From Lachnoclostridium sp. (GTDB lineage Bacteria > Bacillota > Clostridia > Lachnospirales > Lachnospiraceae), in the NCBI GenBank assembly GCA_021770065.1, contig JAETRR010000006.1, forward strand, positions 1-64,000: DNA of 64,000 nucleotides. Reading direction: 5' to 3'. Under the pieces are notes generated by a model, which saw only the letters and a program-made list of their open reading frames with translations, ran no database searches and was not told where the DNA came from. Within the stretch, counting starts at the first letter, position 1; every line of letters starts with the position of its first letter. This document shows, one piece after another, positions 1,870 to 21,039 of the stretch. The position numbers and the translations under genes are program-made.

Positions 1870-1888
1870 GCGGCAGGGAGAGAGTATT

Positions 1889-3736: not shown

Positions 3737-3757
3737 GGAATGGGAAAGGAAGCGCTT

Positions 3758-4171: not shown

Positions 4172-4196
4172 GAGAGGCAGAGGATACGGAGGCTTT

Positions 4197-7100
4197 ATGA
4201 AAACACCGGAACTGGACAGAAGAACAAAATGGGATATCCTGGACGAGCTTGGCAGACTTTCGGAAGCTTATGTACCGGAATGGCGTTTTGATCCGGAAAA
4301 CCCGGATGCCGGAACGGCACTGGCGGTGATATATGGAGAAATGTTAGAAGATGTCTATAGAAAATATAATCAGCTGCCCGTGAAAAATACGCTGGAGTTT
4401 TTCCGTGAGATTAATACGTCCCAGAGGGCGGCACAGCCGTCTTCCGGATATGCTTCTTTCGGGCTGGTAAATCATGAGGTGGAAGGAACGGAACTGCGAA
4501 AGGGAACCCGCCTTCTGGGAAGCGTTCCTGAATCCGGAGATATGGATGTGACATTTGAAACAGTAAATGACGTGTATGTGACGCCGGCCGGGATAGAGGA
4601 GGTATATCAGATCCTTCCGGGGGAGGACGGCATTTATCATGCATACAGCCGGGTAAATCCGGAAGAAGAATTCACACTGCCCTTCTCCTTTTTCCAGAGA
4701 AGGACAGAAAATGAACAGCAGCATGTTCTTTATCTTGCCCATGAATATCTTCTGCGTATGGATAAAGAGGGGCTGATTTCCCTTGCCTTCACAGATCCGC
4801 ATGGTAAAGCCGTCGATCCGGAACTTTTGCAGAAGCTTGCGGATCCTCATAGAATGGAATACGCCTATTCTACGGAAGAAGGCTTTGAGACTTTTGAAAA
4901 CGCCGAAGTAAGGGAAGGGATGATTTGCCTTAAAAAGGCAGCCGGGCAGCCGCCTTCGGCCCGGCAGGAGCGAGAGGGAAGGGAGCTTTACTGGCTTCGT
5001 ATTATCTGCAGGGATGTGCATTCCGCAGAGGAACTTGCAGTGTCCGGCATGTTCCTTCTGGCAGAGGGTGAAAATCTGCAGCCGGAATTGATTCTGGCAG
5101 GGGGAGTAGAGCAGGAAAAGGCGAGGTTCCTTCCCTTTGGAGAGCAGATGGGACTGTATGAAGAGGTTTATTTTGCTTCGGAGCAGGCTTTTTCCCAGAA
5201 GGGCGCGCAGATTACGCTTTCTTTCCGCCTTGACTTTATGAAAATTCCCTCGGACACCTACGGACAGAAGCAGGTAGACTGGAAATTCATTATGAAGCGG
5301 GAAGACTTTATTCCGGATCCGGAATATAATATCGAGATTGCCCAGGTTATCTGGGAATATTTTAACGGAAATGACTGGAGGAGGCTTCCGGAAAGCCGCT
5401 CTTATGAAAAGGTGTTTTCTCCGGCGCCCGGAACCCTGGGCAGACGGATGGAGCTGTCTTTTCTCTGTCCGATGGATATGGAACCTGTGCTTGTCTCCTC
5501 CGCGCGCTCCTGCTATATCCGGGCAAGGATTACGAAAATGGACAATATGTACCGCTGGAACGGGCAGTATATTGCTCCCGTGCTTGGCGATATGCGGGTT
5601 TCATTTTCTTATGAGCGGCCTTATCAGGTTCCGGATTTGGCTGTCATAGAAAATAACAAAGAAAAATCCGTGCTTAAAAAAAGGGAATTGACAGAGATAC
5701 AAGGCATTCTGCACCCGTTCCTCCGGCTGAAGGAAGAGGAGGATACCCTTTATCTTAGTCTTTCACACCCCATCGATCGGGGACCGGTAAGATACTATAT
5801 CCGCCTGCAGGAATATCCGCTTCAAAATAAGTCAGAACAGGGACTAAGACTTGAATATCTCAGTGAGAAAGGCTGGAAGGAACTGCCTGTCATAGACGGG
5901 ACAGCGGGATTCCGTAAAACCGGGATGCTGACCATATTTGGAAATTCCGATTTTGCCAGAAAAAAGTTCTGGGGCAGAGAAGGCTGCTGGATACGGATCC
6001 GGAGGACAGAAGCGCAGCTTTCACCAAAGCTTACAGGCCTTTATGGGAATACCACAGAGATTCTGGCAGTAGAGACAAAGGAAGCGGAATATTTTTCCAT
6101 AGAACCCAATCAGAAGAATGCTTTCTTTACACTTACAGAGAGTAATATTTACGATCTGGAGGTCTGGGTGAGGGAGGATGCGCTGGCAGGAAATCCGGAA
6201 CAGCTGGAAAAATTGAAAGAAAGCTATGAAATCCGGGAAGAGAAAGCAGAAGGCGGCGTGGACTTAGAAATTTTTGTCCGCTGGAAGGAAGCAGACAGCT
6301 TTTCCGCCTCCGGCCCGGAGGACAGGCATTTCGTCATTGACAAAAATCAGGGAATCCTTAAGTTTTCGGATGGAGTCTTTGGAAAAATCCCGGATGCAGG
6401 CGATGGGGAGACCATTATAGTACGGTATACTTTCGGCGGCGGGAGAGCCGGGAATCTTCCAAAAGGAAGCATCCAGAGGATGAACGACAGCATCGGATAT
6501 GTCAGCCATGTCAGGAATCCTGTTCCCACAGTGGGAGGAACTGACAGGGAAAGCGTGGAACAGGCCATATGGAGAAAAAGCAGGGCGCTCTGCCACAGGG
6601 AGCGGGCCATAACAAGACGGGATTATGAAGCGCTTGCTATGGAATCGGCCGGAAATATAGTCCGCGCAAAATGTTATGCCAATTGCTTTCGGGATGGAAG
6701 CAGCAGGCCCGGGCATTTAAGCATTGTCCTCCTGCTTGACAGCCACTATGAAAATCAGGAAGCTTTTGAGGAAGTAAAATGCAGGTGCATGGAAAACCTC
6801 TGCGGAAAGGTTCCGGATTTTTTGATGGAGCAGGAGAGAATCCATATACTTCCGCCGGATTTTGTGGAATTTACTGTGAAGGCGCAGGTACATACAGAAG
6901 ATATCAATCAGATTCTGGATACCCGCAGACGGATTCTGGAGCAGTTAAAAGCATTTTTCCATCCTCTCACAGGTAATTTTCATGGGCACGGATGGCAGAT
7001 AGGGGAAATTCCCAACCAGATGCAGATCCTGAATCTGCTTCGGAATGTTCCAGGAGTCCTGGGAATAGACAGGCTCCGGCTTCTGGCAGTAATTAGAAAA

Positions 7101-7211
7101 AACGGGCAGGTAAGAGAAGCAGGGCCTGAGGAACTGGAAAAAATGAAATTTGCAGCTGCAGCCGGCAGTAACTTTGAAATAGACATTACGGCAGGAGGTA
7201 ATACGGAGTGA
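4197..7211 (+). CDS. Baseplate J-type wedge protein 1 (Pvc11-like)
   Basis: 1004-residue baseplate wedge protein of the P2 gpJ/T4 gp6 group found as the first of a pair in CIS loci. The N-terminus (WRFDPENPDAGTALAVIYGEM, about residues 22-42) and the C-terminal ITRRDYEALA segment (about 810-820) are typical. A GPEDRHF motif followed by FSDGVFGKIP near residue 705 is shared with the next gene. The start is set at 4197 because ACGGAGG precedes it by five bases; the upstream ATG at 4155 lies inside the gp25 gene and lacks a ribosome site. About 1000 residues is long for gpJ but normal for CIS versions. Confidence 0.88.
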   Translation: MKTPELDRRTKWDILDELGRLSEAYVPEWRFDPENPDAGTALAVIYGEMLEDVYRKYNQLPVKNTLEFFREINTSQRAAQPSSGYASFGLVNHEVEGTELRKGTRLLGSVPESGDMDVTFETVNDVYVTPAGIEEVYQILPGEDGIYHAYSRVNPEEEFTLPFSFFQRRTENEQQHVLYLAHEYLLRMDKEGLISLAFTDPHGKAVDPELLQKLADPHRMEYAYSTEEGFETFENAEVREGMICLKKAAGQPPSARQEREGRELYWLRIICRDVHSAEELAVSGMFLLAEGENLQPELILAGGVEQEKARFLPFGEQMGLYEEVYFASEQAFSQKGAQITLSFRLDFMKIPSDTYGQKQVDWKFIMKREDFIPDPEYNIEIAQVIWEYFNGNDWRRLPESRSYEKVFSPAPGTLGRRMELSFLCPMDMEPVLVSSARSCYIRARITKMDNMYRWNGQYIAPVLGDMRVSFSYERPYQVPDLAVIENNKEKSVLKKRELTEIQGILHPFLRLKEEEDTLYLSLSHPIDRGPVRYYIRLQEYPLQNKSEQGLRLEYLSEKGWKELPVIDGTAGFRKTGMLTIFGNSDFARKKFWGREGCWIRIRRTEAQLSPKLTGLYGNTTEILAVETKEAEYFSIEPNQKNAFFTLTESNIYDLEVWVREDALAGNPEQLEKLKESYEIREEKAEGGVDLEIFVRWKEADSFSASGPEDRHFVIDKNQGILKFSDGVFGKIPDAGDGETIIVRYTFGGGRAGNLPKGSIQRMNDSIGYVSHVRNPVPTVGGTDRESVEQAIWRKSRALCHRERAITRRDYEALAMESAGNIVRAKCYANCFRDGSSRPGHLSIVLLLDSHYENQEAFEEVKCRCMENLCGKVPDFLMEQERIHILPPDFVEFTVKAQVHTEDINQILDTRRRILEQLKAFFHPLTGNFHGHGWQIGEIPNQMQILNLLRNVPGVLGIDRLRLLAVIRKNGQVREAGPEELEKMKFAAAAGSNFEIDITAGGNTE

Positions 7212-9043
7212 TCCCTACGATTGATCTGGACAGAGAAAATTTTCAGGAAATCTTTGAAAAAGCAAAAAACCGTATTCCTGTGCTGTATCCGGAATGGACA
7301 AACTATAACACTGCGGATTCCGGGATTGCACTTCTGGAATTGCTTTCCTGGATGAAAGAAATGCAGGAATTTCATATGGATCAGATTGGGGATGGGCAGA
7401 AACAGGTTTATCTGAAGCTTTTGGGATTTCAGAGAAAGAAAAGGACGGCTGCAGAGACAATCGTACACTGTTTTGATGTGGAGAAAGAAGGGATTCTGGA
7501 GAGAGGAACCGGGTTTACGGCCGGCGATATAACCTTTGAATCCCAGGAGGAAGTATTACTGTATCCCGGAAAGCTGCTGGGGTACGGGGAAGAAACCCGG
7601 GAGGAGGGAAGATGCCGCAGGCTGAAGAAAGAACGCTCAAATCTGGGACTTTCGCTTTTCGGACGGAACCCTTCGGAAGGAAAAAACATCTGCTTCTTTT
7701 TTGATAAGGCCTTTGGGAAGGGGCATGTCTTCTCCATGCATTTTCTTTTAAGGGAGGATTATGAGGTCAGGAGGACTCCCATTCCTGCAGATGCAGATTT
7801 TATTCCGCTTGTGTCCCTGTCGTATTCGGTTTTTACAAAAGAGGGATGGATTGCCTGTGAGATATGCGGGGATGAAACCTTTGGTATGCTGCAGAGCGGA
7901 ATCGTCCGGCTTCAGATGCCGGATAAAGCGGCTCTGCCATGGGAAAACGGCTGTTATGCCCTTCGGATTATGCTGGAAGAAGGAGAATACGATATTCCGC
8001 CCGTACTGGAGTATCTGGATTTAAATCCCGTCCGCGTGCAGCAGGTAAAAGCCATCCAAAACGGGACAGAAGGCAGTGTGCTCGGGGTGGGAAACGGATT
8101 TCCCGGGCAGCGCTTTTGGCTGGGGACACAGGGAATTATCGGCAGCAGCGCTGAAATAGAAGTGGAGAATATTCTGAAAAAGGGAAGCTTTGAAAGGTGG
8201 GAATACGTAGATGACTTTTGGGGATCCGGTCCGGAGGACAGGCACTTTACAGTGGATGAAGCCCGGGATGAGATTTGCTTCGGTGACGGAATCTACGGAA
8301 TGGCTCCGGAGGGAGAAATCCGCTTCCTTTCCGGACGGCAGACGGAAGGAAAAGCCGGAAATATCAAGAAAGGACAGCTTCATTATGAGGGGACACAGGT
8401 AAAGTTCCAGGCAGTGAACGAAGCCAATGCCTATGGGGGAGAAGATCCGGAGAGCATTGAGGACTGCCAGAGAAGAATGAAGAAAAGCCTGAAAGAACGT
8501 GATTATGCCATGACGGATGCAGATTATGAACGGATGATCCGGGAAGTGCCGGGGCTTATGATTCACAGGACGAAGGTAATCCGGCAGAAGGAAGAACCGA
8601 ACACGGTTAATATGGTGGTAAAACCCTATTCCCCCGATTTTACAGGAAGTCTTCTTCCGGCATACCGCAGCAATATTATGCGCTATATGGAAAAAAGGCG
8701 GCTGCTGGGTACAAAATTTGTGATTTCCGATCCCGTCTATATTCCGATAACTCTGTATCTGAATCTGGAGCTTCTGGCTTATTACAGAGAGGCGAAAGAA
8801 AAGGCGGAGAAGGAATTGTACCGGTTTTTCAGAGAAAACCAGTCGGATTTTGGAAAACCTGTGCTGGGGAGCGCTGTGTACAGCTTTCTGGACAGTATGG
8901 ATTGTGTGAAAAGGATAGAAGCCATCAACCTGGACGCAGGAGGCGAAAGAGTGGAGCGCAATGCCGGCGGGGACGTGATTCTTCCCGCTAACGGCCTGGC
9001 ATATCTCAAGGAGATTCATGGCAGCTATTCCTATACAGGTTAG
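7208..9043 (+). CDS. Baseplate J-type wedge protein 2 (Pvc12-like)
   Basis: 611-residue putative baseplate assembly protein, partner of the preceding J-type protein. The N-terminus has WTNYNTADSGIALLELLSW (about residues 29-47), the middle has the shared GPEDRHF / CFGDGIYG motif near residue 340, and DADYERMIREVPG near 440-450 is the gpJ-type signature. Translation starts with GTG, whose TG forms part of the upstream TGA stop (four-base overlap); AGGAGG lies eight bases upstream. Coupling implies fixed stoichiometry of the two wedge proteins. Confidence 0.88.
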   Translation: MIPTIDLDRENFQEIFEKAKNRIPVLYPEWTNYNTADSGIALLELLSWMKEMQEFHMDQIGDGQKQVYLKLLGFQRKKRTAAETIVHCFDVEKEGILERGTGFTAGDITFESQEEVLLYPGKLLGYGEETREEGRCRRLKKERSNLGLSLFGRNPSEGKNICFFFDKAFGKGHVFSMHFLLREDYEVRRTPIPADADFIPLVSLSYSVFTKEGWIACEICGDETFGMLQSGIVRLQMPDKAALPWENGCYALRIMLEEGEYDIPPVLEYLDLNPVRVQQVKAIQNGTEGSVLGVGNGFPGQRFWLGTQGIIGSSAEIEVENILKKGSFERWEYVDDFWGSGPEDRHFTVDEARDEICFGDGIYGMAPEGEIRFLSGRQTEGKAGNIKKGQLHYEGTQVKFQAVNEANAYGGEDPESIEDCQRRMKKSLKERDYAMTDADYERMIREVPGLMIHRTKVIRQKEEPNTVNMVVKPYSPDFTGSLLPAYRSNIMRYMEKRRLLGTKFVISDPVYIPITLYLNLELLAYYREAKEKAEKELYRFFRENQSDFGKPVLGSAVYSFLDSMDCVKRIEAINLDAGGERVERNAGGDVILPANGLAYLKEIHGSYSYTG

Positions 9044-9057
9044 GAGAGAAGAAGGAC

Positions 9058-10206
9058 ATGGCCACAGGGCGGTATTATTTTTTATTCAATAAAAAATTGG
9101 ATTTTCTTCGCGGAACCTCAGAGGATCTTGCGTTTACAAAAGAGGGATTCACGCTGAAAGAAGGCTGCAGCGCCGGCTGGTTTTTTTCACGCGTGCTGGA
9201 TGCCGGGGAAACGGAAACGGTCTGGCACAGGCTCCGGCTTACGCTGCCGGAGCACGGCGGCAGTTTCTTTTCGGTCTGTATTTATTCATCGGACCGAAAT
9301 TTCCTGGACTTCAGGGGGGAGAGGATTCCTTTGGGAGAGTTCCTCGGCTCCCGGAAAGAAACGCTGGAAGAAAAGAAGGAGGCGCTCAGGCCGTTTCTTC
9401 GAAAGACAGTGGCTCTGGCGGAGGATGTTCTGCTTTATGAGGTGAAAGGGAGGTATCTCTGGTTCTGCCTCGAGATGGAGCTAAGAGACGGGGAGCGGGC
9501 CTGCATCCGGGATCTGCGCATTGATTTTCCAAAGCGAAGCTGGGTGCAGTACCTTCCGGAGATCTATCAGAGGGAGGAGGCATCCAGGGTATTTCTGGAG
9601 CGGTATCTGGGAATTTTTCAGAGTCTCTATGAGGATATGACAGAGAAGATTGAGTATTCCGCCGGGTGGTTTGACCCGGACAGCGCTCCAAAAGAGGTTC
9701 TTTCCTGGCTGGCAGAATGGATAGCTCTTGAGGATGCCCAGATCTGGGATGACAGACAGCTGCGCTGTCTATTGAAAAACGCAATGCAGCTTTACCGGAT
9801 CCGGGGAACAGCAGAGTACCTGCAGAAAATGATCTGCCTTTATACGGGGGGCGAGGCTTATATTATTGAAAATCATCAGCTTGGCCGTTTCCGGAACAAC
9901 AGGGGAGTGTATGAGAGGCTGAAACGGCTCTATGGGGATCACGCATATATGCTCACGATTGTGATTTCCGCAAGTCAGAAGAATACACAGAAAGATCGGC
10001 ATACTCTGATGAAAATTGTAGAACATGCAGTTCCCGCCTATATGGAATATAGAATTATACAGCTTCAGCAGTACATTTTTTTAAATCAGTATTCTTATCT
10101 GGGAATCAACAGCTGCCTGGGGCCGTATCGTCCCCTGATGCTGGATGGGTTATCGGCCATGCATTTTTCGAGGATAGAAAGAGAAGCCGAAGGAGAGGAA
10201 GAATAA
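9058..10206 (+). CDS. Phage tail protein I-like baseplate protein
   Basis: 382 residues in two parts. Residues 1-160 are beta-rich and not assigned. From residue 161 (WVQYLPEIYQ) the protein matches the P2 gpI / CIS tail protein family, with FDPDSAPKEVLSWLAEWI (about 204-221) and MQLYRIRGTAEYLQKMI (about 243-260). In CIS particles this component completes the wedge near the outer baseplate, where fibres attach. A good ribosome site (AGGAGAGAAG) precedes the ATG. No tail-fibre gene follows in this window. Confidence 0.85.
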   Translation: MATGRYYFLFNKKLDFLRGTSEDLAFTKEGFTLKEGCSAGWFFSRVLDAGETETVWHRLRLTLPEHGGSFFSVCIYSSDRNFLDFRGERIPLGEFLGSRKETLEEKKEALRPFLRKTVALAEDVLLYEVKGRYLWFCLEMELRDGERACIRDLRIDFPKRSWVQYLPEIYQREEASRVFLERYLGIFQSLYEDMTEKIEYSAGWFDPDSAPKEVLSWLAEWIALEDAQIWDDRQLRCLLKNAMQLYRIRGTAEYLQKMICLYTGGEAYIIENHQLGRFRNNRGVYERLKRLYGDHAYMLTIVISASQKNTQKDRHTLMKIVEHAVPAYMEYRIIQLQQYIFLNQYSYLGINSCLGPYRPLMLDGLSAMHFSRIEREAEGEEE

Positions 10207-10207
10207 T

Positions 10208-11947
10208 ATGAAAAATTTAAAATATTTTCCCTTTGAGAGAAATAAGTACTTTTATGGAAAACTGTTGTCGGTAGAAGACTTTGAGGTAGAGCAGCGCTAT
10301 ATGAATGATAAGCGCCGGGTGCTGAATCGTTTTCTGTATGGAACGGGGATTGTGTGCGGTATGAATGTCCTGGTGGTGGACGATACAACGATTTCTGTGG
10401 AACCGGGACTTGCCCTGGATTTTTCCGGAAGGGAGATTGTCATAGACGCGCCTGTGACCAGAAGGCTTTCTGTGATTGAAGGTTTTGAAAATTTCCGAAA
10501 GGCAGAGGATGTAAAGGGATATCTCTACCTTTGCCTGGATTATGATGAGAAAGAAAAAGAAGAAGTACATAACGTAACGGGTGTTGTGCATACGGAGTAC
10601 AACCGGTATCAGGAGGGCTTTCGCCTCTATGTGACAGAACGGGAGCCGTCCACAGAAAACCTTTCCGCAGGCGCATCCTATGAGAAGACGAGAGTGCTCT
10701 ATTCGGGAAACGGGATTCGGATTAAACAGACAGTCCCCCGGTTTGCAGCTGCAGGCGGGGAGGCAGAGCTTAAGGTGACGGTAGAGAATATCGGGCAGAT
10801 TCTTCCGATTCATTTTTCCTATGAATTGGAACTGACCGGCATGGAATGGGAAGGCAGGCGTTTCCTGAAAGCGGAATTCAGGGAAGAGGATTATGAGAAG
10901 AGCCACAGCTATGAAATCTGTTACCGCCTGAAAACCATTACTTCCCGGGAGGCGGCTGCTTCGCTGGAAACGGTTCCCGGAAGTTTTGAGCTTTCCCTCG
11001 GGGAACAGGCAGAGGAAGCGGAAGTTTCCCAGAAACTGACGCTGCAGGTAATCTGCGGAGATTTGAAGGAAAAGCTCATACAAAATTATTACGAAAGCGC
11101 CATGGATGCGATTGTGCGGAATAATTACCAGCAGAGTATTTACCTGGCAAAGCTGTTTGTCATCCGGGCTGGAGAGTCCTATATTATCGATTCGGTAAAG
11201 CCGGTTCCTTTCGGCCAGTATGTGTATAACAATATGCTTTCAGATATGATGAACCGGCTGTATTTGAAGGAAGAGCGAGAGAGAAGAAAGAATACCCCGG
11301 GAGATTTTTCAAAAAATCTTCCGGATTCAGAAAAGTTCCGGGCGCTTCTGGAAGGCGGCAATATTACAAGCGGATCTGTCACCATGGATCTCGGAATGGG
11401 GGGCAGTAAGGGGCAGAGATTCTTTTCTGAGGAACTGAGCCATAACCTGGGGCTGGGAAAGGTTCGTATTTTTCTGGGACACTGCATGGATATTGAGGAC
11501 AAAGAGGTGATTTACGGATCGCCGGAAGTGTTTGAGAAAATGTCGTTCCGCGCGGAGACGGCAGCCCGTGTGAACGGTGAAAAAGGAACCTTTCAGATCG
11601 GCCTGCGCCTGATAGAACCGACTATGACCCGGTTTGTGCGGATAGACTGGATGGCAGTCAGAGATCCGGCGGATCCTCTCCACGATATGGAAGAGATGGA
11701 ACTGTTTATAAAGCCGGGGATCCTGCATATGAAAACGAGAGAATCCTTTTTCCTGAAGACGGAATTTCATGGGACAGAGCCTACGGAGGTGGTCTGGAGC
11801 GTGAAGGAAGAAGTGGGAGGCAGTATCGAACAGAACGGAAAGTATACGGCGCCGAATCTTCCCGGAATCTATGAGGTAAAGGTTCAGAGTACCGTTTATG
11901 AAAGGCTGCATGCTTCCATATTTATTATTGTACGGGATGAAGACTGA
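10208..11947 (+). CDS. CIS-locus structural protein of unknown function
   Basis: 579-residue soluble protein that begins two bases after the gpI-like stop. The N-terminal 100 residues (FERNKYFYGKLLS, RFLYGTGIVCGMNV, EPGLALDFSGREIVI) resemble a conserved CIS-locus family I associate with this position, but I cannot name its job. Later segments include a beta-sandwich-like region near 180-260 and a C-terminal Ig-like strand pattern (VVWSVKEE, GKYTAPNLPGIYEV). It could decorate the baseplate or act as a short receptor- or membrane-facing appendage. No signal peptide or membrane segment is seen. Confidence 0.6.
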   Translation: MKNLKYFPFERNKYFYGKLLSVEDFEVEQRYMNDKRRVLNRFLYGTGIVCGMNVLVVDDTTISVEPGLALDFSGREIVIDAPVTRRLSVIEGFENFRKAEDVKGYLYLCLDYDEKEKEEVHNVTGVVHTEYNRYQEGFRLYVTEREPSTENLSAGASYEKTRVLYSGNGIRIKQTVPRFAAAGGEAELKVTVENIGQILPIHFSYELELTGMEWEGRRFLKAEFREEDYEKSHSYEICYRLKTITSREAAASLETVPGSFELSLGEQAEEAEVSQKLTLQVICGDLKEKLIQNYYESAMDAIVRNNYQQSIYLAKLFVIRAGESYIIDSVKPVPFGQYVYNNMLSDMMNRLYLKEERERRKNTPGDFSKNLPDSEKFRALLEGGNITSGSVTMDLGMGGSKGQRFFSEELSHNLGLGKVRIFLGHCMDIEDKEVIYGSPEVFEKMSFRAETAARVNGEKGTFQIGLRLIEPTMTRFVRIDWMAVRDPADPLHDMEEMELFIKPGILHMKTRESFFLKTEFHGTEPTEVVWSVKEEVGGSIEQNGKYTAPNLPGIYEVKVQSTVYERLHASIFIIVRDED

Positions 11948-11970
11948 GCAGGCAGGAGAAGGAATTTGCC

Positions 11971-12852
11971 ATGAGAATAAGAACCCTGGAGAAAAACTAT
12001 GAGATCCTTTTGAAGGAGAGTGAGGATCAGAGAAGCCGGATTGTGATTGCAAGAGAAGCCGGCTCTCCTCCGGACAGCCGGTTCCTTCTGGAGGAATTAA
12101 AGCAGGAGGCAGATATCCATGCGTTTCTGCCCTTTTGTGAGGAACAGAAAAAGAATGAACCTTTTGACGACTTCGTGGAGTATTTTTCTTTGGACGGAAG
12201 CCTGTATCTGGTATTCCGGCATCCGGAGGGAGAGAATCTTAAAAAATGGCTGGAAACGTATAAAAGCTCGCTGGAAGAACGTCTCCGCGCGGCTAAAAGC
12301 CTCCTTCAGAACATGGTTTTTTTGAATATGCCGCCATATCTTCAGTATGAGGCATTGAACTTTAAGAACCTGGTGATTGATAAAAACAGTACGATTCATT
12401 TCTGCTATGGGCTGTATGAGCCGGAACGGCTTGAAAATGTAACCAGGGAAGATATCTGGAGCAGAACAGGGGAGGTTCTGACAGAGCTTTTTTTGATGGA
12501 ATTTGGTGAAAAGAGCTGTCCCTCCATAGAGCGGTTTGCGGAACTTGTGGAAAAAGGGAATTTCACTTCCTATCTGGAGGCTTACCGTGCCTTTGCCGCC
12601 GTGTATGAAGAGACTTTTGAGGCCCTTAAGAGGAATGAAATAAAACCGCAGGGCCCGGGCGCCCGCGTTATAGAAAGGGGAAAGGCGCTGCTTCGCTTTC
12701 TGCGTTATCTTCTGACTGCTGCGGTGCTTGCCTGCCTTGTATTTTATCTGATTTATACGGTGCTTCATCCACAGGGCAGCGGGGAACCGGTAAATTTTGA
12801 ACGGATCGGAACCCTGGAGCTTAAAGATCCTCATGGGGCAGAGACCGACTAG
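11971..12852 (+). CDS. Membrane-anchored pseudokinase-like protein in CIS operon
   Basis: 293 residues with one membrane span at about 246-264 and a short C-terminal tail. The cytoplasmic part reads like a degenerate protein-kinase C-lobe. A hinge-like GSLYLVFRHPEGENL lies at 76-90. A catalytic-loop-like YEALNFKNLVID at 126-137 has YEA where HRD is expected and keeps the downstream Asn. CYG at 145-147 stands where DFG is expected. All catalytic Asp residues are therefore missing. The architecture recalls the EssB/YukC pseudokinase of type VII secretion, but homology is not shown here. It lies between baseplate genes and the MORN gene with 11-24 base gaps. Confidence 0.6.
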   Translation: MRIRTLEKNYEILLKESEDQRSRIVIAREAGSPPDSRFLLEELKQEADIHAFLPFCEEQKKNEPFDDFVEYFSLDGSLYLVFRHPEGENLKKWLETYKSSLEERLRAAKSLLQNMVFLNMPPYLQYEALNFKNLVIDKNSTIHFCYGLYEPERLENVTREDIWSRTGEVLTELFLMEFGEKSCPSIERFAELVEKGNFTSYLEAYRAFAAVYEETFEALKRNEIKPQGPGARVIERGKALLRFLRYLLTAAVLACLVFYLIYTVLHPQGSGEPVNFERIGTLELKDPHGAETD

Positions 12853-12863
12853 GAGAGAAAAGA

Positions 12864-14429
12864 ATGCGCTTTACGAATGACTATAACTGGAAAAAAACCA
12901 TGGATTTTGGGTTGAAAAGGATGTTCCGGACATTTACAAGGCCTTTTGCAGCCATAAGGCTTCGATTTCGGCGGCTGAGAAATCCAAACACTCTGGTGGA
13001 TACCGTTGTGACAGATGCGCAGAAGGGGATGAAAGATGCTGTTTTCCGGACTCCGGAATCCCTGGAAGAATATGTTCCGGTGGGACGGTATTATGCGGCT
13101 AAAAAGCTGATCCTGGGTTTTATGGTTCTTTTCCTTGTGCTGGCGATTTTGTATCTGAAATTCCTCCATCCCCGGATTGTCTCCCGCTTTTTCTGGAATA
13201 CCATTCCCGTGAACAGCCAGGAAATGTACGGTTATACCGGAAAGGTGCGGCTGACGGACGGAGAAAAAGGAAGAATACTTTTTGAGGGCAGAATGGAGGA
13301 GGGACGTATCCTGGGTGAGGGAACCCTTTATGATTATGAAGGAAATCTTTTGTATGAGGGAAATTTTCTCAATCAGATGTACGAAGGAGAGGGCGTATCT
13401 TATTATCCCAACGGGCAGGTACAGTATACAGGCAGCTTTGCCCAGAACCTTTATGAGGGAGAGGGGATTCTTTATGAAGAAAACGGAAACATCCTTTATA
13501 AGGGAAACTTTTCTTTGGGTCTGTATGAAGGAGAAGGCGTTCTCTACCGGAAGGGTGTCCGGTATTTTGAGGGAAGCTTTAAGGAGGGGCGGATTGAGGG
13601 AGAGGGAATTCTTTATCAGCCGGACGGACAAATTTTAAGCCAGGGAACTTTTCTGGACGGAGAGCTCCAGGCAGGAGGCTCTATACTCTACGACGAAAAG
13701 GACAGAGTCTCTTATATCGGAGGATTGTCCGAGGGTCTTTATGACGGAGAGGGCGAGCTGTACGTGAAGGGAGATTTAACCTACAAAGGGCAGTTTAAAA
13801 AGGGCCTCTATGAGGGAGAGGGAGAGCTATATGAAGAAGAGATCCTGATTTATAAGGGAGGATTTAAAGAAGGCCTCTATGAGGGAATGGGAAAAGAGTA
13901 CCGGAAAGGTGTTCTTCTCTACGAGGGCAGCTTTGCGGCCGGAGAAAGAGAGGGAGAAGGAACGGAATATCTGTTTCAGAAGGACGGCGGACTGCTCCTC
14001 TATCAGGGTACATGGAAGCAGGGACGGTACGAAGGAGAAGGGAAGCTTTATGATACGGTCACAGGAAATCTTCTCTACGAGGGCAGTTTTGCGGCGGGAA
14101 TATATGAAGGCGAGGGGAAACTCTATGATCCGGACACAGGAAATATGATCTATGAGGGCGGATTTCATCAGGGTCTCTACGAAGGAAGCGGGAAGCAGTA
14201 CGATGCACTCACTCAATTTATCCTGTATGAGGGAGAGTTCCGTAACGGCGTTTATGACGGAGAGGGAGTTCAGTACAATATTGCAGGCGTTAAGCTGTAC
14301 GAGGGAAGATTTTTGCTGGGCCAGTATCATGGACAGGGAATAATGTATGATACCGATACGGGCCGTGTGGCGGGAGAGGGAGAATTCCGGGACGGAAATC
14401 TTCTGACACCCCAGGCGGAGCTGGAATAA
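12864..14429 (+). CDS. Membrane-anchored MORN-repeat protein
   Basis: 521 residues: a basic N-terminal 80 residues, one hydrophobic span at about 82-101, then about sixteen MORN-type repeats (consensus YEGxFxxGLYEGEGxLY) from about residue 139 to the end. MORN repeats form extended beta-ribbons that bind membranes, lipids or partner proteins. With Arg/Lys-rich sequence before the span, the repeats are probably outside the cell, though orientation is inferred. The gene is 11 bases after the pseudokinase-like gene and 14 before the DUF4255 cap gene, so it is inside the CIS operon, where fibre or tape-measure genes often lie in other loci. Confidence 0.8.
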   Translation: MRFTNDYNWKKTMDFGLKRMFRTFTRPFAAIRLRFRRLRNPNTLVDTVVTDAQKGMKDAVFRTPESLEEYVPVGRYYAAKKLILGFMVLFLVLAILYLKFLHPRIVSRFFWNTIPVNSQEMYGYTGKVRLTDGEKGRILFEGRMEEGRILGEGTLYDYEGNLLYEGNFLNQMYEGEGVSYYPNGQVQYTGSFAQNLYEGEGILYEENGNILYKGNFSLGLYEGEGVLYRKGVRYFEGSFKEGRIEGEGILYQPDGQILSQGTFLDGELQAGGSILYDEKDRVSYIGGLSEGLYDGEGELYVKGDLTYKGQFKKGLYEGEGELYEEEILIYKGGFKEGLYEGMGKEYRKGVLLYEGSFAAGEREGEGTEYLFQKDGGLLLYQGTWKQGRYEGEGKLYDTVTGNLLYEGSFAAGIYEGEGKLYDPDTGNMIYEGGFHQGLYEGSGKQYDALTQFILYEGEFRNGVYDGEGVQYNIAGVKLYEGRFLLGQYHGQGIMYDTDTGRVAGEGEFRDGNLLTPQAELE

Positions 14430-14443
14430 GGAGGCGGAAAAGA

Positions 14444-15034
14444 ATGGGAAAATATACGGCCATTTCCGAGATGAGCCGCGCGATTCTCCGTATTTTAAGA
14501 AGAGAGCTGGTTCCGGATACCATACAGAATCCGGATGCCATCGGGCTTTGCAGTCCGGATGACCGGGGCGATTTTGTCGTGGGGATTCATCTGTATGATA
14601 TTAAAACAAGCGAGGAGATACGCGCGAACTCCATGGTGCCTCAGGGAACCGGCAGCAGCCGGTATCCCTCCTGCTTTGTAAATCTTTTTTATATGATAAC
14701 GGTACACTCCATCGGTGATATCAAATTCCGTTCCGAAGAGGAACAGAAGGTGCTTGGAAAAATCGTCCAGGCCCTCCATGATAATTCCTGCCTGGATGCG
14801 CAGACCCTGGAGCCCGTGTCTGTGCGCAAGCCTATGGATGTAGTGATTCAGATGCAGACCCTGGAGCTCGAGGAAAAGGTACGGATCTACAATGTGCCAA
14901 ATGCAGGCTATAAGCTTTCCCTGTTTTATAAGGCGGCTCCTGTGGAGATTGAATCACTGAAAACAAAACAGGTATCCCGTGTTACGGATATGGAATTTAC
15001 GGTGGAACAGCAGCAGGGGGGAGCAGACTTATGA
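14444..15034 (+). CDS. DUF4255 tail terminator/cap protein (Pvc16-like)
   Basis: 196-residue protein with DUF4255 features: an N-terminal ISEMSRAILRILRREL helix, DFVVGIHLYDIKTSEEIR near 45-62, an SSRYPSCFVNLFYMIT segment near 69-84, and a C-terminal EIESLKTKQVSRV strand. In CIS particles this family caps the distal end of the tube and sheath. AAGGAGGCGG precedes the ATG. Its TGA overlaps the next ATG by four bases. Confidence 0.88.
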   Translation: MGKYTAISEMSRAILRILRRELVPDTIQNPDAIGLCSPDDRGDFVVGIHLYDIKTSEEIRANSMVPQGTGSSRYPSCFVNLFYMITVHSIGDIKFRSEEEQKVLGKIVQALHDNSCLDAQTLEPVSVRKPMDVVIQMQTLELEEKVRIYNVPNAGYKLSLFYKAAPVEIESLKTKQVSRVTDMEFTVEQQQGGADL

Positions 15035-15756
15035 TAAAGATAAAAGTGTCCTGTGTCCTTCAGTTTCTGGACGATTATACGGAAAATGTAATCACGGATC
15101 CGGTGCTTCATATAAAAGATGAAAGCGGAAGGAAACCCCTGCGCAAGGAGGGCGGTTATTATGTGTTTCTGGAAAATGGATTGCCGGTAAAGACGGTTAC
15201 GGTGACTTCTCCTTTTTATGACAGGGAAACGATCCGGGCAGGGGAAGCTGATCTTGAAGTACGGAAGGTGCGGCTGCGTCCGGGAAAGAATTATCCCGTT
15301 CCCCCGGGCATGATCTGCATGGAAGGGAAAGCTCCTGCCGGAAGCTGTGTGGGCGTTGTTATTACAGGAATGGAATCCTCTTTCCGGCTTCTCTATGATT
15401 ACATACCGGAAAAAGAGGCGGATTATCTTGAACTTTACCACCCTTCGGGAGGGGACTTAACCGGAATGGAGTTCCTGATTATGGAGAGCGGCAAGAAAAA
15501 AAGAGAGTTTTTCCGCGTGGCTGAGTACAAAAAGGAGACGGGCAGGTGCAGGCTTACAAAGCCCCTTTCCGGTTCCTATAAAAAGGCAGGTTCGCTCCTG
15601 TATCCCTTTTATTATACGCGAAGCGCTGAGGACGGGCGTTACTTTCTGCCCGTCAGGGCAAGGCTTGCAGAGCCTGTCTCCTGTCTCATCTATCTGGACG
15701 GAAAGGAAAGAGAGGGAGAGCTGGAGCCCGGAAAAAACAACAAGGTAGATTTCTGA
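15031..15756 (+). CDS. Hypothetical beta-rich CIS-operon protein
   Basis: 241 residues, start overlapping the DUF4255 stop (ATGA), so it is almost certainly co-translated. No signal peptide or membrane span. The first 90 residues look like a carboxypeptidase-regulatory or Ig-like beta-sandwich (DPVLHIKDESGRKPL, GLPVKTVTVTSPFY). The centre contains PVPPGMICMEGKAPAGS, and the C-terminus more short strands. I do not recognise a family. Its place between the cap and ATPase genes suggests a particle-associated or assembly role. Confidence 0.6.
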   Translation: MIKIKVSCVLQFLDDYTENVITDPVLHIKDESGRKPLRKEGGYYVFLENGLPVKTVTVTSPFYDRETIRAGEADLEVRKVRLRPGKNYPVPPGMICMEGKAPAGSCVGVVITGMESSFRLLYDYIPEKEADYLELYHPSGGDLTGMEFLIMESGKKKREFFRVAEYKKETGRCRLTKPLSGSYKKAGSLLYPFYYTRSAEDGRYFLPVRARLAEPVSCLIYLDGKEREGELEPGKNNKVDF

Positions 15757-15773
15757 GAGGAAAGAGGAAGAGC

Positions 15774-17864
15774 ATGCGGCGTGGGATATACAAAAGTGAG
15801 TGGGAATATACGGAAGAGCTGCTGGGACTAGCAGAAGAAAAGCTGCGTGCATACCAGGGGGCAAAAGGGCTTTTCGAGGGTCTGCCTCCCTGCCCGGAGA
15901 TCAAAAGCTATGAGGAGCACCAGGAAACTTTTCGGGAACGCATACGGATCATGGGGGAGAGGGCAAAACTTTCCGCAGGGCAGGGAGTCGTGATTCCAGT
16001 GGAATACCTGTACCGCGTATTTCGGGCAGATAATTTTATGAAGCACTGCATCATCCTGTCTCTTGCAGCAGAGCTTGACGGGGATTTCAGAAAGAGCTGT
16101 ACGCTTCTTGAGGAAAACCAGAATTATGAATTCCCTACCCTTCAGCTCTGTATTCATTCTTACACCCTCCATCGGGAGGAGCGCAGCAGGCTTTTGGGGG
16201 ATGTCTACAGGAACCGGGCAGGATACGAATATTTTTTCGGAAGAACGCCCTCCGGAAAGTTTGCATCCTCCGGCTGGACGCTCAGGCTTGACGAGCGGAT
16301 CCGAATCTTTCTTTTCCGGATGGAGGATGAAGCGCCGGAGCTTCGGGGATTCTGCCGCCTTGCCCTTCCGGGAGAGGTGAAAGAACGGCCCATGCTTTAC
16401 CGGGAGGAGCTGGCCCTGCGCCTTGCGGAGTTTTTAAAGCAGGACAAGCCCCGGGAGCGGATCTGTTATCTGTACGGGGAAGAGGGAGCCGGGAAAGAGT
16501 TTCTGGTCCGGCATGCGTTCCGGGAGCTTGGAAAGCTCTGCCTCTTTGTACAGGCCGGAGGTCTTCTTGCCGATGAAAATGATACGCGTCTTGGACAGGT
16601 CTTGAGGGAAGCGAAGCTTCGCCGGGCCGGGCTGTGTATCCGGGACTTCCAGGAGCTCACAAAGGAATGGAAGGAATACGAAGCCTGGGAAATGCTGGAG
16701 GAATGTCTAAGGGAGCTTCCTTTTTTGATACTTCTCTCCACGGAAAAATGGCCCTACAGCCGGAAAAAGCTTTCGGAAGAATTCCTGGAGATTTCCCTTC
16801 CCCTCCCGGATATCGGAAAGCGGATGCTCCTTTGGAGACAGGCATTTACAGAGGCAGGGATAGACGGGGCAGATCCGGAAGGTCTGGCCGTCAAGTTCTC
16901 TTTTTCGCCGGGAAAGATTAAGGCCAGTGTCCGGGAGGCCGTAAGGCTGGCCGGCTGGAGGGGAAAACCGGTGGATGAAGAAATCCTTTATGAAGCCTGC
17001 CGGATGCAGATTTCCCACAATCTTGGAGAAAAGGCCGCATGCATTGAGGCAGCTTTTGAATGGGAGGATCTGGTTCTGCCGCATTTTCAGAAAATGCGTC
17101 TTAGAAATGCCTGTGATCAGATTACCTTTTATCACAGGGTTTATGAAACCTGGGGCTTTGAGAAAAAGCTTCCTTACGGAAGAGGCGTATCTATGCTGTT
17201 TTACGGGCCGCCGGGAACGGGAAAGACCATGGGTGCACAGGTAGTTGCAAGGGGGCTTCATCTGGAGCTATATAAGGCGGATCTCTCTTCGGTTATGTCA
17301 AAGTATATCGGTGAGACCGAGAAAAATCTGGACAGCATTTTTGAAGAGGTGAAAAAGAGCCGGAGCATTCTGTTTTTTGACGAGGCGGACGCACTGTTTG
17401 GAAAGCGTTCCGAGGTAAAGGATGCCCAGGATAAATATGCCAATGCCGAGACGGCATACCTGCTTCAGAAGATAGAAGAATACGAGGGAATTGTGATTCT
17501 GGCCAGCAATTACCTCCAGAATTTTGACGAAGCCTTTAAACGGCGAATTAAATTTATGATAGAATTTCCGCTTCCGGATCGGGAACGCCGCCTGGAGATC
17601 TGGAAACGCATGTATCCCAAGGAAGCGCCGGTAAGCGAGGAACTGGATTTTGCTTATCTGGCCCGGCAGTTCGAGCTGTCGGGCAGCAGCATAAAGAATA
17701 TTGCGGCGGCCTCCGCTTTTCTGGCGGCTGCCCAGGAGACAGAAATAGGGATGCGCCAGGTGCTCTTTGCCTTGTCGGAGGAGCTCAAAAAGTCAGGGAA
17801 GCTTTTGCAGAGGGAAGAGTTCGGAGAATACGGATACATGACAGAAGAGATATTTCTGCAGTGA
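15774..17864 (+). CDS. CIS AAA+ ATPase (Pvc15-like)
   Basis: 696 residues with two ATPase modules. The first has a degenerate P-loop, GEEGAGKE, at about 235-242. The second is intact, with Walker A GPPGTGKT at 478-485, Walker B ILFFDEADALFG around 531-542 and a C-terminal arginine-rich region (EAFKRRIKF). The N-terminal 200 residues are helical. This is the layout of the ATPase conserved in extracellular CIS loci, thought to help assemble or load particles. Intact motifs suggest it is active. Stop at 17862-17864 is followed immediately by a repeat-rich gap. Confidence 0.9.
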   Translation: MRRGIYKSEWEYTEELLGLAEEKLRAYQGAKGLFEGLPPCPEIKSYEEHQETFRERIRIMGERAKLSAGQGVVIPVEYLYRVFRADNFMKHCIILSLAAELDGDFRKSCTLLEENQNYEFPTLQLCIHSYTLHREERSRLLGDVYRNRAGYEYFFGRTPSGKFASSGWTLRLDERIRIFLFRMEDEAPELRGFCRLALPGEVKERPMLYREELALRLAEFLKQDKPRERICYLYGEEGAGKEFLVRHAFRELGKLCLFVQAGGLLADENDTRLGQVLREAKLRRAGLCIRDFQELTKEWKEYEAWEMLEECLRELPFLILLSTEKWPYSRKKLSEEFLEISLPLPDIGKRMLLWRQAFTEAGIDGADPEGLAVKFSFSPGKIKASVREAVRLAGWRGKPVDEEILYEACRMQISHNLGEKAACIEAAFEWEDLVLPHFQKMRLRNACDQITFYHRVYETWGFEKKLPYGRGVSMLFYGPPGTGKTMGAQVVARGLHLELYKADLSSVMSKYIGETEKNLDSIFEEVKKSRSILFFDEADALFGKRSEVKDAQDKYANAETAYLLQKIEEYEGIVILASNYLQNFDEAFKRRIKFMIEFPLPDRERRLEIWKRMYPKEAPVSEELDFAYLARQFELSGSSIKNIAAASAFLAAAQETEIGMRQVLFALSEELKKSGKLLQREEFGEYGYMTEEIFLQ

Positions 17865-17894
17865 CTTTACCCTTTAGAGCTGTCGCGCAGCGGC
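17865..17894 (+). repeat. Hairpin-SD element, copy A (truncated)
   Basis: Starts CTTTACCCTTTAGAGC and continues through GTCGC-GCA-GCGGC, nearly identical to the first 30 bases of copy B but lacking the TAGAATAGGAGG tail. It begins directly after the ATPase stop codon. Confidence 0.8.
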
Positions 17895-17895
17895 A

Positions 17896-17988
17896 GGTAA
17901 AGCCGCAAAGGCGCACGAGAGGAACTTTTATGAGTGTCCTTTCGAATAAAAGTTTCTCTCAATACCAGTGTGTCGAAGCGGCTTTACC
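17896..17988 (+). repeat. Nested inverted repeat before payload gene
   Basis: Outer arms GGTAAAGCCGC (17896-17906) and GCGGCTTTACC (17978-17988) are perfect reverse complements. Inner arms at 17917-17931 and 17946-17960 pair over 15 bp with one G-U wobble, with a 14-base loop. No T-run follows, so it is not a classic terminator. It lies between hairpin-SD copies A and B and may attenuate or process the transcript between the particle genes and the payload gene. Confidence 0.75.
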
Positions 17989-18024
17989 CTTTAGTGCTGT
18001 CGCGCAGCGACTTAGAATAGGAGG
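17982..18024 (+). repeat. Hairpin-SD element, copy B
   Basis: CTTTACCCTTTAGTGC, then the perfect hairpin GTCGC-GCA-GCGAC, then TTAGAATAGGAGG. The AGGAGG is the ribosome site of the payload gene, whose ATG is at 18032, seven bases later. Confidence 0.85.
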
Positions 18025-18031
18025 AAAACAA

Positions 18032-19996
18032 ATGCCCAAGCATCATCATACGAAGACAAGAGAACAAAGCGAAGGGACAGAAAAACGTAAGCATCGCCAT
18101 CATCCCAGGCATAGACATGAGGAGCAGGCACAGCAGCAGGAGCCGGTAACTGCTGTGGAACAATCGGAACAGCCTGCCACCCGGTCGCGGAGCAATGCGG
18201 TCGGGCCGAAACAGCGCCCCGATCTTGAAGTAATTTCCAACCCGGAATGGTACACAGGCCTCAAAGAAAGACTGAATGAGTTCGGGCAATATAACAACGC
18301 CTTTGCGGGCACAAAGGAGAATCTGGCCTACACAGCGGATCTGGATCATCTGGATGCGATTGAGGCCGGCGCACATAGTAAAAAGGCTCACCTGGATGCT
18401 CTTTTTGATAAAATTACAGAACTGCATGAGGACATGTTAAATGATCCGGGAAATGCGGATAAGAAAGCAGAGGGTGAGAACTTTTACGATACCTGCTGCA
18501 AGAAAAAAGCAATCAGTGAACAGCTTTATGCAGATCTGTTATCAGCAGTAACGGATCGGAAGAAAGCAGTTCAGAACGAGCAGAATAAAATGCAGAAGCA
18601 ACAGAAGCGCAGCAGCGTGCGCGCACGCCTGCAGGCTCTTCAGAAGGATTCCCCTATGATGCAGCTTATACGCAGAGTAAAGGCCATGGAAAGCGGAGCG
18701 GCTCCGGACACTTCCGGCGTAAAGACGACTAAGACTGCAGGCCTTATGGACTGGCTCTCTGAGGACGTGCAGGAGGGCGTGAACTCGCTCATGGACACGA
18801 AAGAGACCGTGGAGGAAAGCGTAGAAGGCGGCGATCAAATGAAATCCTTTATCGAGGGTATTCAGACAGGAAGCGTGAAGGAGGAAGACGGAGGCTTAAA
18901 GGAAAAAATTACCGACGGCATTGAGACCGTGAAAAATATTGCGGAAACCGTTCGTGATGTGGTGGATGCAATCCGGAATTTTTCAAAGATGTCAAAGGAA
19001 AATAAGGAGGAAATGCTGGCAGACCTGATTTCAAACAGCATCAAAACGGCGCTGGACGCTTCGAAGTATATCGTGGATCTGATCAAAGATGTGCCGATTC
19101 TGGGAGGCATCATCGGCCTGATCAAAAATGCCATTACTTTTTTCCAGAAAGGTTTTGAGATCTATCACGCCGAAAAGCGTAAAAAGGCTATGAAAGAAGC
19201 CCGGCACAGGCTGAAAGAAAAGATGTTAAAGCGCAGGGAAAAATATGCGGGGGATGAGGATCTGAAAGACATGGGGCTTTATACCCAGGTTGAAAGGGGT
19301 GCGGACGGAGGCGCACATATGACAGCGGCTCAGAAAAAGCAGGACAAGAAAGACTACGGACGGGAAAGAAGAGGAATGGACGGTCAGGCCGGCGGACAGA
19401 ACCGGGATATTATGCGCCGGAATGCGGCGCGGCGGAAGGAAGACCCGGCAGCGAAAAAGGCATATTACGGAGCCAAGGCCCGGGAATCCCAGGCTCAGTA
19501 CGATGAAATGAAGGAAGCGTCTTACCGAAGCAAAAATATTGTAAGAGAGGCCATTCTGGATATCATTCAGGAAGGGGTTTCCGTGGTGGAGAATATTGCC
19601 TCTTTTGTCCCCGGCGTGGGAACCGTCGTGAAGGCCGGGGCAAAAGCCGTCAATACGGGAACGGGACTGGGCAGAAAGGGAGCCGCCTGGATACACAGCA
19701 GCTGGAAAGAGTTTCGGAACAATCCCCGTTCTGAAACGAATAAGGCAAAATTCCGCGCAAAATATGCGGAAAATGTGTACAGCAGCCTGGCGGATGTCTC
19801 CCAGTTTGTCAACACAGACGGAGGCATTACCATTGATGATACAAAGCTTGATGAGGTAAAACGGGTCGAGGACAGTTATAATTTTGCGGAGACACTCCTC
19901 GGCGGGGTGGGCGCCGATATGCCCGCCCTTATCAATTCAGAGTCCAAGGACGAGCTTCTTGACAATATGAGCGCTATGTTTGCCCGGGAGGGATAA
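18032..19996 (+). CDS. Candidate CIS payload: basic N-tail, two hydrophobic helical segments
   Basis: 654 residues, family not recognised. Residues 1-60 are disordered and rich in His, Arg, Lys, Glu and Gln. Residues 61-345 are helical. Residues 346-373 (DLIKDVPILGGIIGLI region) and 508-548 (SFVPGVGTVVKAGAKAV region) are hydrophobic and Gly-rich, like helical hairpins of pore-forming proteins. Between them lies a very basic helical segment (380-475). There is no signal peptide. The frame is open back to 17861, but the ATG at 18032 has AGGAGG seven bases upstream. It is followed by a chaperone-like gene and the PAAR tip. A loaded effector is inferred; a tape-measure or internal structural protein is the main alternative. 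Confidence 0.6.
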   Translation: MPKHHHTKTREQSEGTEKRKHRHHPRHRHEEQAQQQEPVTAVEQSEQPATRSRSNAVGPKQRPDLEVISNPEWYTGLKERLNEFGQYNNAFAGTKENLAYTADLDHLDAIEAGAHSKKAHLDALFDKITELHEDMLNDPGNADKKAEGENFYDTCCKKKAISEQLYADLLSAVTDRKKAVQNEQNKMQKQQKRSSVRARLQALQKDSPMMQLIRRVKAMESGAAPDTSGVKTTKTAGLMDWLSEDVQEGVNSLMDTKETVEESVEGGDQMKSFIEGIQTGSVKEEDGGLKEKITDGIETVKNIAETVRDVVDAIRNFSKMSKENKEEMLADLISNSIKTALDASKYIVDLIKDVPILGGIIGLIKNAITFFQKGFEIYHAEKRKKAMKEARHRLKEKMLKRREKYAGDEDLKDMGLYTQVERGADGGAHMTAAQKKQDKKDYGRERRGMDGQAGGQNRDIMRRNAARRKEDPAAKKAYYGAKARESQAQYDEMKEASYRSKNIVREAILDIIQEGVSVVENIASFVPGVGTVVKAGAKAVNTGTGLGRKGAAWIHSSWKEFRNNPRSETNKAKFRAKYAENVYSSLADVSQFVNTDGGITIDDTKLDEVKRVEDSYNFAETLLGGVGADMPALINSESKDELLDNMSAMFAREG

Positions 19997-20003
19997 ATGT
20001 CAA

Positions 20004-20038
20004 GTTAGTGCCATCGCGCAGCGATTTAGAATAGGAGG
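20004..20038 (+). repeat. Hairpin-SD element, copy C
   Basis: GTTAGTGCC, then the hairpin ATCGC-GCA-GCGAT, then TTAGAATAGGAGG. Both ends of the stem differ from copies B and D, but pairing is kept. The AGGAGG ends seven bases before the ATG at 20046. Confidence 0.85.
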
Positions 20039-20045
20039 AAAAGAA

Positions 20046-20573
20046 ATGACCAGGACCAAAATGCGAAAAGACATGGAGGCGCTTGCTGATTTCCTGGAAG
20101 ATATAGGCTGGGATACACAGGTTTTGATAGAAAGTGTTTCCATCCCCACCTTGACGGCTTCCCTGGCTTTGGACGAGGATTATGACGAGCTTCTTGTTTT
20201 TAATTATATTCCCATGAAAAAAGAGGACGCCGAGTTTACAAAGCTTCTACAGATTTACGGGAGAATTCCCCTGGATCTTCATACGCTGCCCCTGGAGGAT
20301 GTTCACCTTCTGATGAACCGGATGAATCTTCTGACCACTTTCGGGCATTTTGTACTAATGCCAGAGGAGGAAAAGGAAGAGGGAGAGACGTATATGGGGC
20401 TTCGCTGCGTGCTGGGAATTCCCATGGAAGAGCTTCCGGACGAGGGTGTTATTGGAGAGACGGTGCTTCATATCACGCATTACTGCCAGATTATGGAAAG
20501 CCTTCTCCTGGGACTTTTGACTGGAGAAAGCACGCTTGCAGAAACACTTGCTTCCATCGAAAGCAGATTGTAG
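20046..20573 (+). CDS. Small acidic chaperone-like protein
   Basis: 175 residues, strongly acidic, no membrane segment. Predicted alternation of helix and strands (EALADFLEDIGWD, VLIESVSIPTLTASLAL, HFVLMPEEE, LRCVLGIPME, then a long C-terminal helix) resembles the fold pattern of type III secretion chaperones and YbjN-type proteins; this is structural analogy only. Start at 20046 is set by the AGGAGG of repeat copy C; the frame is open to 19980. Being between the payload candidate and the PAAR tip, it could be the payload chaperone or adaptor. Confidence 0.55.
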   Translation: MTRTKMRKDMEALADFLEDIGWDTQVLIESVSIPTLTASLALDEDYDELLVFNYIPMKKEDAEFTKLLQIYGRIPLDLHTLPLEDVHLLMNRMNLLTTFGHFVLMPEEEKEEGETYMGLRCVLGIPMEELPDEGVIGETVLHITHYCQIMESLLLGLLTGESTLAETLASIESRL

Positions 20574-20998: not shown

Positions 20999-21039
20999 CC
21001 GGTAACAGGATTTTGAAAAGGAAAGAGAGGAAACAAGGG

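Follow-up and report, generated by a model that had tools for sequence, protein, structure and literature searches.

The window, by which we mean the whole stretch of 64,000 nucleotides that was analysed, is the start of the 82-kb contig C58 in a 4.14 Mb genome assembled into 145 contigs. It carries a contractile injection system (CIS) locus with a baseplate run at 1240-10206 and cap and ATPase genes at 14444-17864, as recognised by Pfam families. The genes are the following, where X10, PK, X15 and CYC are our own labels.

4..1227, + strand: candidate tape measure, coiled-coil-like and rich in repeats; the contig edge leaves only the 3′ part of this long gene
1240..1869, + strand: LysM-bearing tube/baseplate protein, Cis7-like (CIS_tube PF19266, 4.6e-33)
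1889..2950, + strand: spike hub, gpD-like (Phage_GPD 0.011, below cut-off; position conserved in relatives)
2951..3736, + strand: spike OB protein, VgrG/gpV-like (Phage_base_V, 1.6e-18)
3740..4171, + strand: gp25 baseplate wedge (GPW_gp25, 8e-28)
4155..7211, + strand: Baseplate_J protein 1 (PF04865, 1.3e-7)
7208..9043, + strand: Baseplate_J protein 2 (PF04865, 9.5e-14)
9058..10206, + strand: gpI-like baseplate protein (Tail_P2_I, 6.9e-8)
10208..11947, + strand: X10, putative fibre-type adaptor; N-terminal docking domain of about 115 aa, C-terminus without known family
11971..12852, + strand: PK, predicted pseudokinase domain, one transmembrane (TM) helix (247-265), short tail with an invariant Ile-Gly
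12864..14429, + strand: MORN-repeat protein, basic N-terminus, one TM helix (82-100) (PF02493, 3.8e-26)
14444..15034, + strand: cap protein, Pvc16_N (PF14065, 1.6e-23)
15031..15756, + strand: X15, conserved protein after the cap (no Pfam match; 65 homologous ORFs in the loci scanned)
15774..17864, + strand: AAA ATPase (PF00004, 9.7e-33)
17861..19996, + strand: 711-aa protein, accessory or cargo candidate (no Pfam match)
19980..20573, + strand: 197-aa protein, accessory
20612..20998, + strand: DUF4280 PAAR-like tip (PF14107, 5.3e-36)
20935..22740, + strand: CYC, two-TM HAMP sensor with degenerate class III cyclase domain (HAMP, 9.5e-12; true start probably near 21040)
22769..23683, + strand: LPG_synthase_C-like protein, possible accessory (PF09924, 7.6e-14)
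23617..26658, + strand: multi-span protein with MFS domain, accessory in some relatives (MFS_1, 3.3e-36)

The core of an Afp/PVC-type eCIS is present, with sheath, tube, LysM-tube, gp25, Baseplate_J, AAA ATPase and Pvc16 cap. The sheath sits on a separate contig, C69, whose last 99 bases are exactly the first 99 of the window (1-99). As this overlap lies within a tandem-repeat gene, the locus was probably broken there by the assembler. The notion of a CIS without a sheath was rejected. The near-identical repeats of the gene at 4..1227, for which no Pfam family scored above cut-off, carry on into C69, and all 11 relatives that were inspected have a gene at the corresponding position, whose length varies and which ends in RRG in 8 cases. 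In relatives G037, G003 and G031 the order runs sheath, tubes, long tape-like gene, LysM-tube, hub, spike, gp25, two Baseplate_J, gpI, X10, PK, MORN and cap. Contig C69 also carries a second AAA ATPase paralogue ahead of the sheath gene (L009:7500-9320); the protein after it is 248 aa long and has relatives in both G037 and G003. Between the ATPase and PAAR genes of the window, the pair at 17861-20573 may be a cargo and its partner; relatives of each gene came up in just two of the scanned loci, L017 and L029. Homologues of the MFS-domain gene occur in G003, G095, L018, L021 and others.

The initial annotation saw no recognisable tail-fibre gene between gpI and the cap and proposed that membrane anchors had taken the place of fibre and tape genes. 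Neither statement is supported, as X10 (10208-11947) begins with the N-terminal docking domain of S74 fibres and a tape-like gene lies upstream at 4..1227. Judged by its sequence, X10 is a fibre-type docking protein, so that a fibre-type gene is present in the interval. At a cut-off of E 1, a profile of the docking domain matched just two PDB sequences, 9wt0_a (0.0017) and All3314 (0.0019), the latter a protein of the Anabaena baseplate 7B5H (tCIS), whose 18 All3314 chains would agree with the six Cis19 trimers described for the crown in the accessible text of PMC8894136. The full-length X10 profile matched no CIS protein in the PDB, where the N-terminal profile alone did, and X10 had no match among 50,697 phage records at E 0.001. 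From the description in the accessible part of PMC12923769, the docking domain can be equated with the eBAP3 of that work, to which group X10 probably belongs; the An92 protein NFGZ01000037_8 named there lies on the same contig as L025 and is probably the X10 of that locus. Compared with the fibres of Afp and PVC, X10 keeps the docking domain, no S74-like end was found in it, and a role as a shaft-and-tip fibre is putative. No TM helix is predicted in the X10 of the window or in 79 of the 84 X10 ORFs.

The two single-span membrane genes that had been reported between gpI and the cap, one pseudokinase-like and one with MORN repeats, are real, a TM helix being predicted in each, and the membrane set extends past the 9058..15756 interval to CYC at 20935-22740. 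The predicted structure of the window's PK and its fold matches give a two-lobed kinase fold. The catalytic HRD Asp is missing from 52/52 PK sequences and the DFG Asp (its column placed by eye) is found in 5/52, and with a modelled kinase fold and absent active-site residues PK is a predicted pseudokinase. The family is not CIS-specific: its profile matches 69/391 genomes at E 0.001, mostly through short matches to kinase-like stretches, with longer matches also to proteins away from CIS genes. In the 13 stretches examined for such relatives, the outside parts of the proteins look, by eye, like PKD or LysM domains. In T7SSb, EssB/YukC joins a pseudokinase, a TM helix and a large outside domain within the T7SS locus; an assignment of the non-CIS relatives to EssB/YukC was set aside as less likely than the PKD/LysM-like reading, and EssB/YukC was not among the listed fold matches of the window's PK. 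CYC-like genes stand beside non-CIS pseudokinase-type proteins in 2 of the 13 stretches (L153:5592 and L156:7024), which hints at an older PK-CYC pairing.

The MORN proteins are long (401-904 aa among ORFs of at least 400 aa), and their repeats are predicted to lie outside, a topology with weak charge support (44/71). CYC has two TM helices and a cyclase domain whose profile matches the PDB at 2.6e-16. In columns taken from the CyaB alignment, its catalytic residues are mostly lost (Asp1 and Asp2 each kept in 1/28, Asn and Arg each in 2/28), and without the metal Asp pair and the catalytic Asn/Arg it is predicted not to act as a class III nucleotide cyclase. A CYC-like ORF was found in 56 of 58 loci with an 8 kb flank, a count from a one-round search that may include unrelated HAMP/cyclase proteins; the CYC-free loci, L017 and L029, carry the extra genes found ahead of the sensor in the window.

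Conservation of the membrane pair was assessed with X10, rather than the membrane genes, as the query against a collection of 84,980 species genomes. This gave 217 stretches encoding an X10 relative, of which the best 80 were analysed with at most 10 kb per side, and 69 of these 80 were testable, having at least 3 kb of flank behind X10. A PK domain (counted with profile A4) and a MORN protein (counted by a pattern of at least three repeats) were each present in 69/69 testable loci, in three of them fused, and many of the A4 members are themselves among the 80 counted loci (A4, A6 and A7 hold 52, 28 and 18 hand-picked members, respectively). X10, PK and MORN were contiguous, with gaps below 400 bases, in 67/69, the exceptions being L084 (MORN ORF split) and L092 (a sensor gene between). 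The co-occurrence in related Clostridia that the initial annotation had put forward as a check is therefore found, and the view that the membrane genes are sporadic was rejected. In the fused cases (L036, L054, L056 and the contig-cut L039), PK runs straight into the TM helix and repeats of the MORN protein; a quick Baseplate_J tree, with long branches, places all four in a single clade. In a sample of 391 genomes from the class, 15 have the cap family PF14065, and each of the 8 in which the MORN anchor N-terminus occurs belongs to those 15; in a ninth cap genome, G412, the MORN ORF is cut by the contig end. By their titles, the records with related loci are mostly Lachnospiraceae and other Clostridia, including the cultured isolates Sporofaciens musculi, Petralouisia muris and Bacilliculturomica massiliensis, with two titled as Bacteroidota. 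L048 and L070, titled Bacteroidales/Muribaculaceae, group inside Lachnospiraceae loci in the tree, L070 adjoining Blautia L073, and their titles or bins may be wrong.

It could be argued that the membrane proteins are transmembrane cargo, immunity proteins or an unrelated sensory operon that hitch-hikes with the CIS, much as there are PK-like proteins, with PKD or LysM domains on the outside, that occur away from CIS genes. Cargo and immunity genes would be expected to vary between strains, whereas here both genes are present in every testable locus, can be fused, persist across relatives whose PK is only 19-33% identical to that of the window, and, for the MORN anchor, are confined to cap-positive genomes of the 391-genome sample. 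We regard this explanation as highly improbable.

The docking domain of X10 also heads the fibres of a second type of Clostridia CIS, which we call type B. Our sample of these comprises the six remaining cap genomes and the second locus of G122, seven loci in all, with G294 cut by a contig end and not counted. In each of the six complete type B loci, gpI has behind it between one and three genes for proteins headed by the X10 docking domain; these fibres, of 851-1975 aa, end in a Peptidase_S74-like chaperone. Loci with S74 fibres include L130, L135 (G232), L159 (G336) and L160 (G387); in G122a one fibre is intact and the others appear as short ORFs. PK and MORN were absent from 6/6 complete type B loci within the stretches examined, and conversely no S74-like end was found within the flanks examined of the 80 anchor-type loci (the best 80 of 217), in a search with a single query, the C-terminal 125 residues of one G232 fibre. 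Pfam confirmed S74 on two of the type B fibres. PF13884 was not found in the window's own genome. MORN anchors and S74 fibres thus exclude each other per locus among the loci examined. The genome of G122 has one locus of each type (L118/L158/L162 and L129/L137), offering a natural internal comparison of fibre-type and anchor-type CIS. Together, the exclusion and the 69/69 co-occurrence support a link between the CIS and the producer's own membrane. Of the earlier proposal that the CIS is docked there, this part is supported, while the replacement of fibre and tape genes is not.

Some loci are rearranged. The block X10-PK-CYC-MORN stands away from gpI in G183 and G317, and occurs in G075 and L092 with no baseplate gene in the stretch examined. 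In G095, G429 and G122b, X10 follows gpI with MORN and CYC elsewhere in the locus, so that X10 can stand apart from the membrane genes. In two of these MORN-bearing loci, G429 and G122b, no PK was found. In G429 an ABC-type substrate-binding protein (PF04392; L133:2867-4003) lies beside X10, where PK would be expected. Behind the MORN gene in G183, G317, G075, G095 and L092 there is an OEP-type protein of the TolC family, then a large coiled-coil-like protein. The OEP-type genes directly after MORN are the following.

L015:8635-10710, - strand: OEP-type protein
L125:9109-11268, + strand: OEP-type protein
L121:13211-15262, + strand: OEP-type protein
L092:17156-19234, + strand: OEP-type protein

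Pfam confirmed OEP in G095, G183 and G317. Our profile was built from these three and G075, so that the match in G075 is by construction while those in L092 and G429 are not. Among the 80 loci (the best 80 of 217), OEP was found within the flanks only in L092, and the part of the locus in the window gave no match; OEP is thus not a general part.

These arrangements bear on whether the system is an ordinary free eCIS, with X10 as a short target-binding fibre, release by lysis, and PK, MORN and CYC serving to regulate, to aid assembly at the membrane or to protect the producer. Such a reading would agree with the fibre-type docking domain of X10, with the view of such proteins as fibres in the accessible text of PMC12923769, with the rarity of TM helices among X10 ORFs, and with the place of X10 behind gpI in G095, G429, G122b and the common gene order. 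In G183 and G317, however, X10 keeps company with PK, CYC and MORN away from gpI; it has neither the S74-like end nor the long shaft of type B fibres; and the loci that do bear such fibres are without PK and MORN. We consider a free eCIS to be quite unlikely.

X10 occupies the fibre position with the same docking domain and another partner, for which PK-MORN-CYC is the simplest candidate, suggesting that the CIS is held at its own membrane. We think it likely that this set attaches the CIS functionally to the producer's membrane, whatever the direction of firing, and on balance probable, by a modest degree, that the CIS is docked to the cytoplasmic membrane via X10-PK-MORN and fired outward from inside the cell. 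In such a mechanism, the N-terminus of X10 would bind gpI/baseplate, as fibres do, and its C-terminus would hold PK by its cytoplasmic domain, not a foreign receptor. Where the CIS docks, PK and MORN may make up a complex that reaches from inside to outside, with the MORN repeats in the wall zone; for a small subset of loci, the lining of a channel may come from a TolC-like OEP protein. The CYC sensor could report an outside signal that leads to release of the baseplate trigger. Interaction, location, trigger, target, docking and firing direction are alike conditional in this scheme. Several observations weigh against this reading. The accessible text of PMC12923769 treats eBAP3 proteins, including the probable X10 of L025, as target-binding fibres; X10 follows gpI in G095, G429 and G122b, and PK was not found in the latter two; the PK of G358 has no TM helix; topology support for MORN is weak; PK-like domains exist outside CIS; G122 has both locus types; and the 80 loci, the best of 217, were found through X10.

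The direction of firing could also be turned against the producer. In Streptomyces, as described in the accessible part of PMC12237407, the single-pass membrane protein CisA is encoded at the fibre position beside the baseplate genes, is needed for contraction and triggers self-destruction. Applied here, free cytoplasmic particles would be recruited to the membrane under stress by PK, MORN and the sensor, and firing would kill the producer, making the membrane genes a trigger rather than a permanent anchor. A HAMP sensor with degenerate cyclase and a pseudokinase would suit such a checkpoint role, but CisA has an SBP-like domain, not a kinase or MORN repeats, and the long MORN proteins, with OEP/TolC-like partners in a small subset, lean towards an envelope-spanning structure. 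For the same reason we lean to outward, T6SS-like firing over CisA-like self-destruction, which we hold to be unlikely, if a serious contender. As a tentative and bolder extension of outward firing, possible but short of probable, the locus may represent a separate trans-envelope machine for monoderm cells that evolved in Clostridia from eCIS parts, with X10 as a TssK-like adaptor, PK and the dead-cyclase sensor as membrane ring and trigger, and MORN rods (in the subset, with OEP tunnel and coiled-coil partner) forming a passage across the thick wall.

Among the work cited here, only Streptomyces CisA has been worked out for CIS action in Gram-positive bacteria. A conserved and readily recognised membrane set, present in 8/391 genomes of the class and in cultured isolates, makes such action testable. 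In one type of Clostridia CIS the fibre-type docking domain forms the start of S74 fibres, and in the other it adjoins membrane genes; it is thus no proof of an extracellular particle, and we offer a gene-content rule in which the pairing of the domain with an S74 fibre or with membrane genes would predict the mode of action. In the open-licence literature we found nothing that joins contractile injection systems with MORN repeats or a pseudokinase, and one paper that mentions them together with Lachnospiraceae.

One close likeness is to the CisA system, as far as the accessible text of PMC12237407 describes it, with a single-pass membrane protein at the fibre position of a Gram-positive CIS. 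By that description the N-terminus of CisA is unstructured and its outside domain SBP-like, and the present set differs in having two to three partners, kinase-like and MORN, plus a fibre-type adaptor; at that position in the window we found a predicted kinase fold in PK and MORN repeats. The SBP gene beside X10 in G429 may be set against the outside domain of CisA, described as SBP-like. The thylakoid-anchored CIS of Anabaena (PMC8894136, in its accessible part; PDB 7B5H) likewise re-uses fibre-like proteins as a hold on its own membrane, and the X10 N-terminal profile matches its All3314 (E 0.0019). There the fibre-like Cis13 carries its own TM helix, whereas X10 lacks one, and the hold would fall to separate membrane proteins. 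In the haloarchaeal T6SS (main text of PMC11566945) the CIS stands perpendicular to the cytoplasmic membrane and a putative anchor gene, Hbor_38620, is common to 29/41 loci, but kinase and MORN are absent from that text and the envelope is an archaeal S-layer. The Bacteroidales BIS, or T6SS subtype iv, is a gut CIS without classical fibre genes, for which the accessible text of PMC12210884 proposes that an Aasi_0556-like protein aids inner-membrane anchoring; its hosts are diderm Bacteroidota, and no Clostridia are named in that text. The eBAP3 fibres are read as target-binding in the accessible part of PMC12923769, which mentions no membrane module, and which finds eBAP3 fibres to resemble TssK and Tail_P2_I to resemble TssG. 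Our proposed scheme shares with the proteobacterial T6SS (TssK-TssJLM) the layout of baseplate, RBP-like adaptor and membrane complex, while PK, MORN and CYC have, as far as could be seen, different folds, so that a T6SS-like layout would be built from unrelated parts. We know of no Gram-positive bacteria with a T6SS trans-envelope complex, and if our reading is true, some of them may possess an anchored injection machine of their own type.
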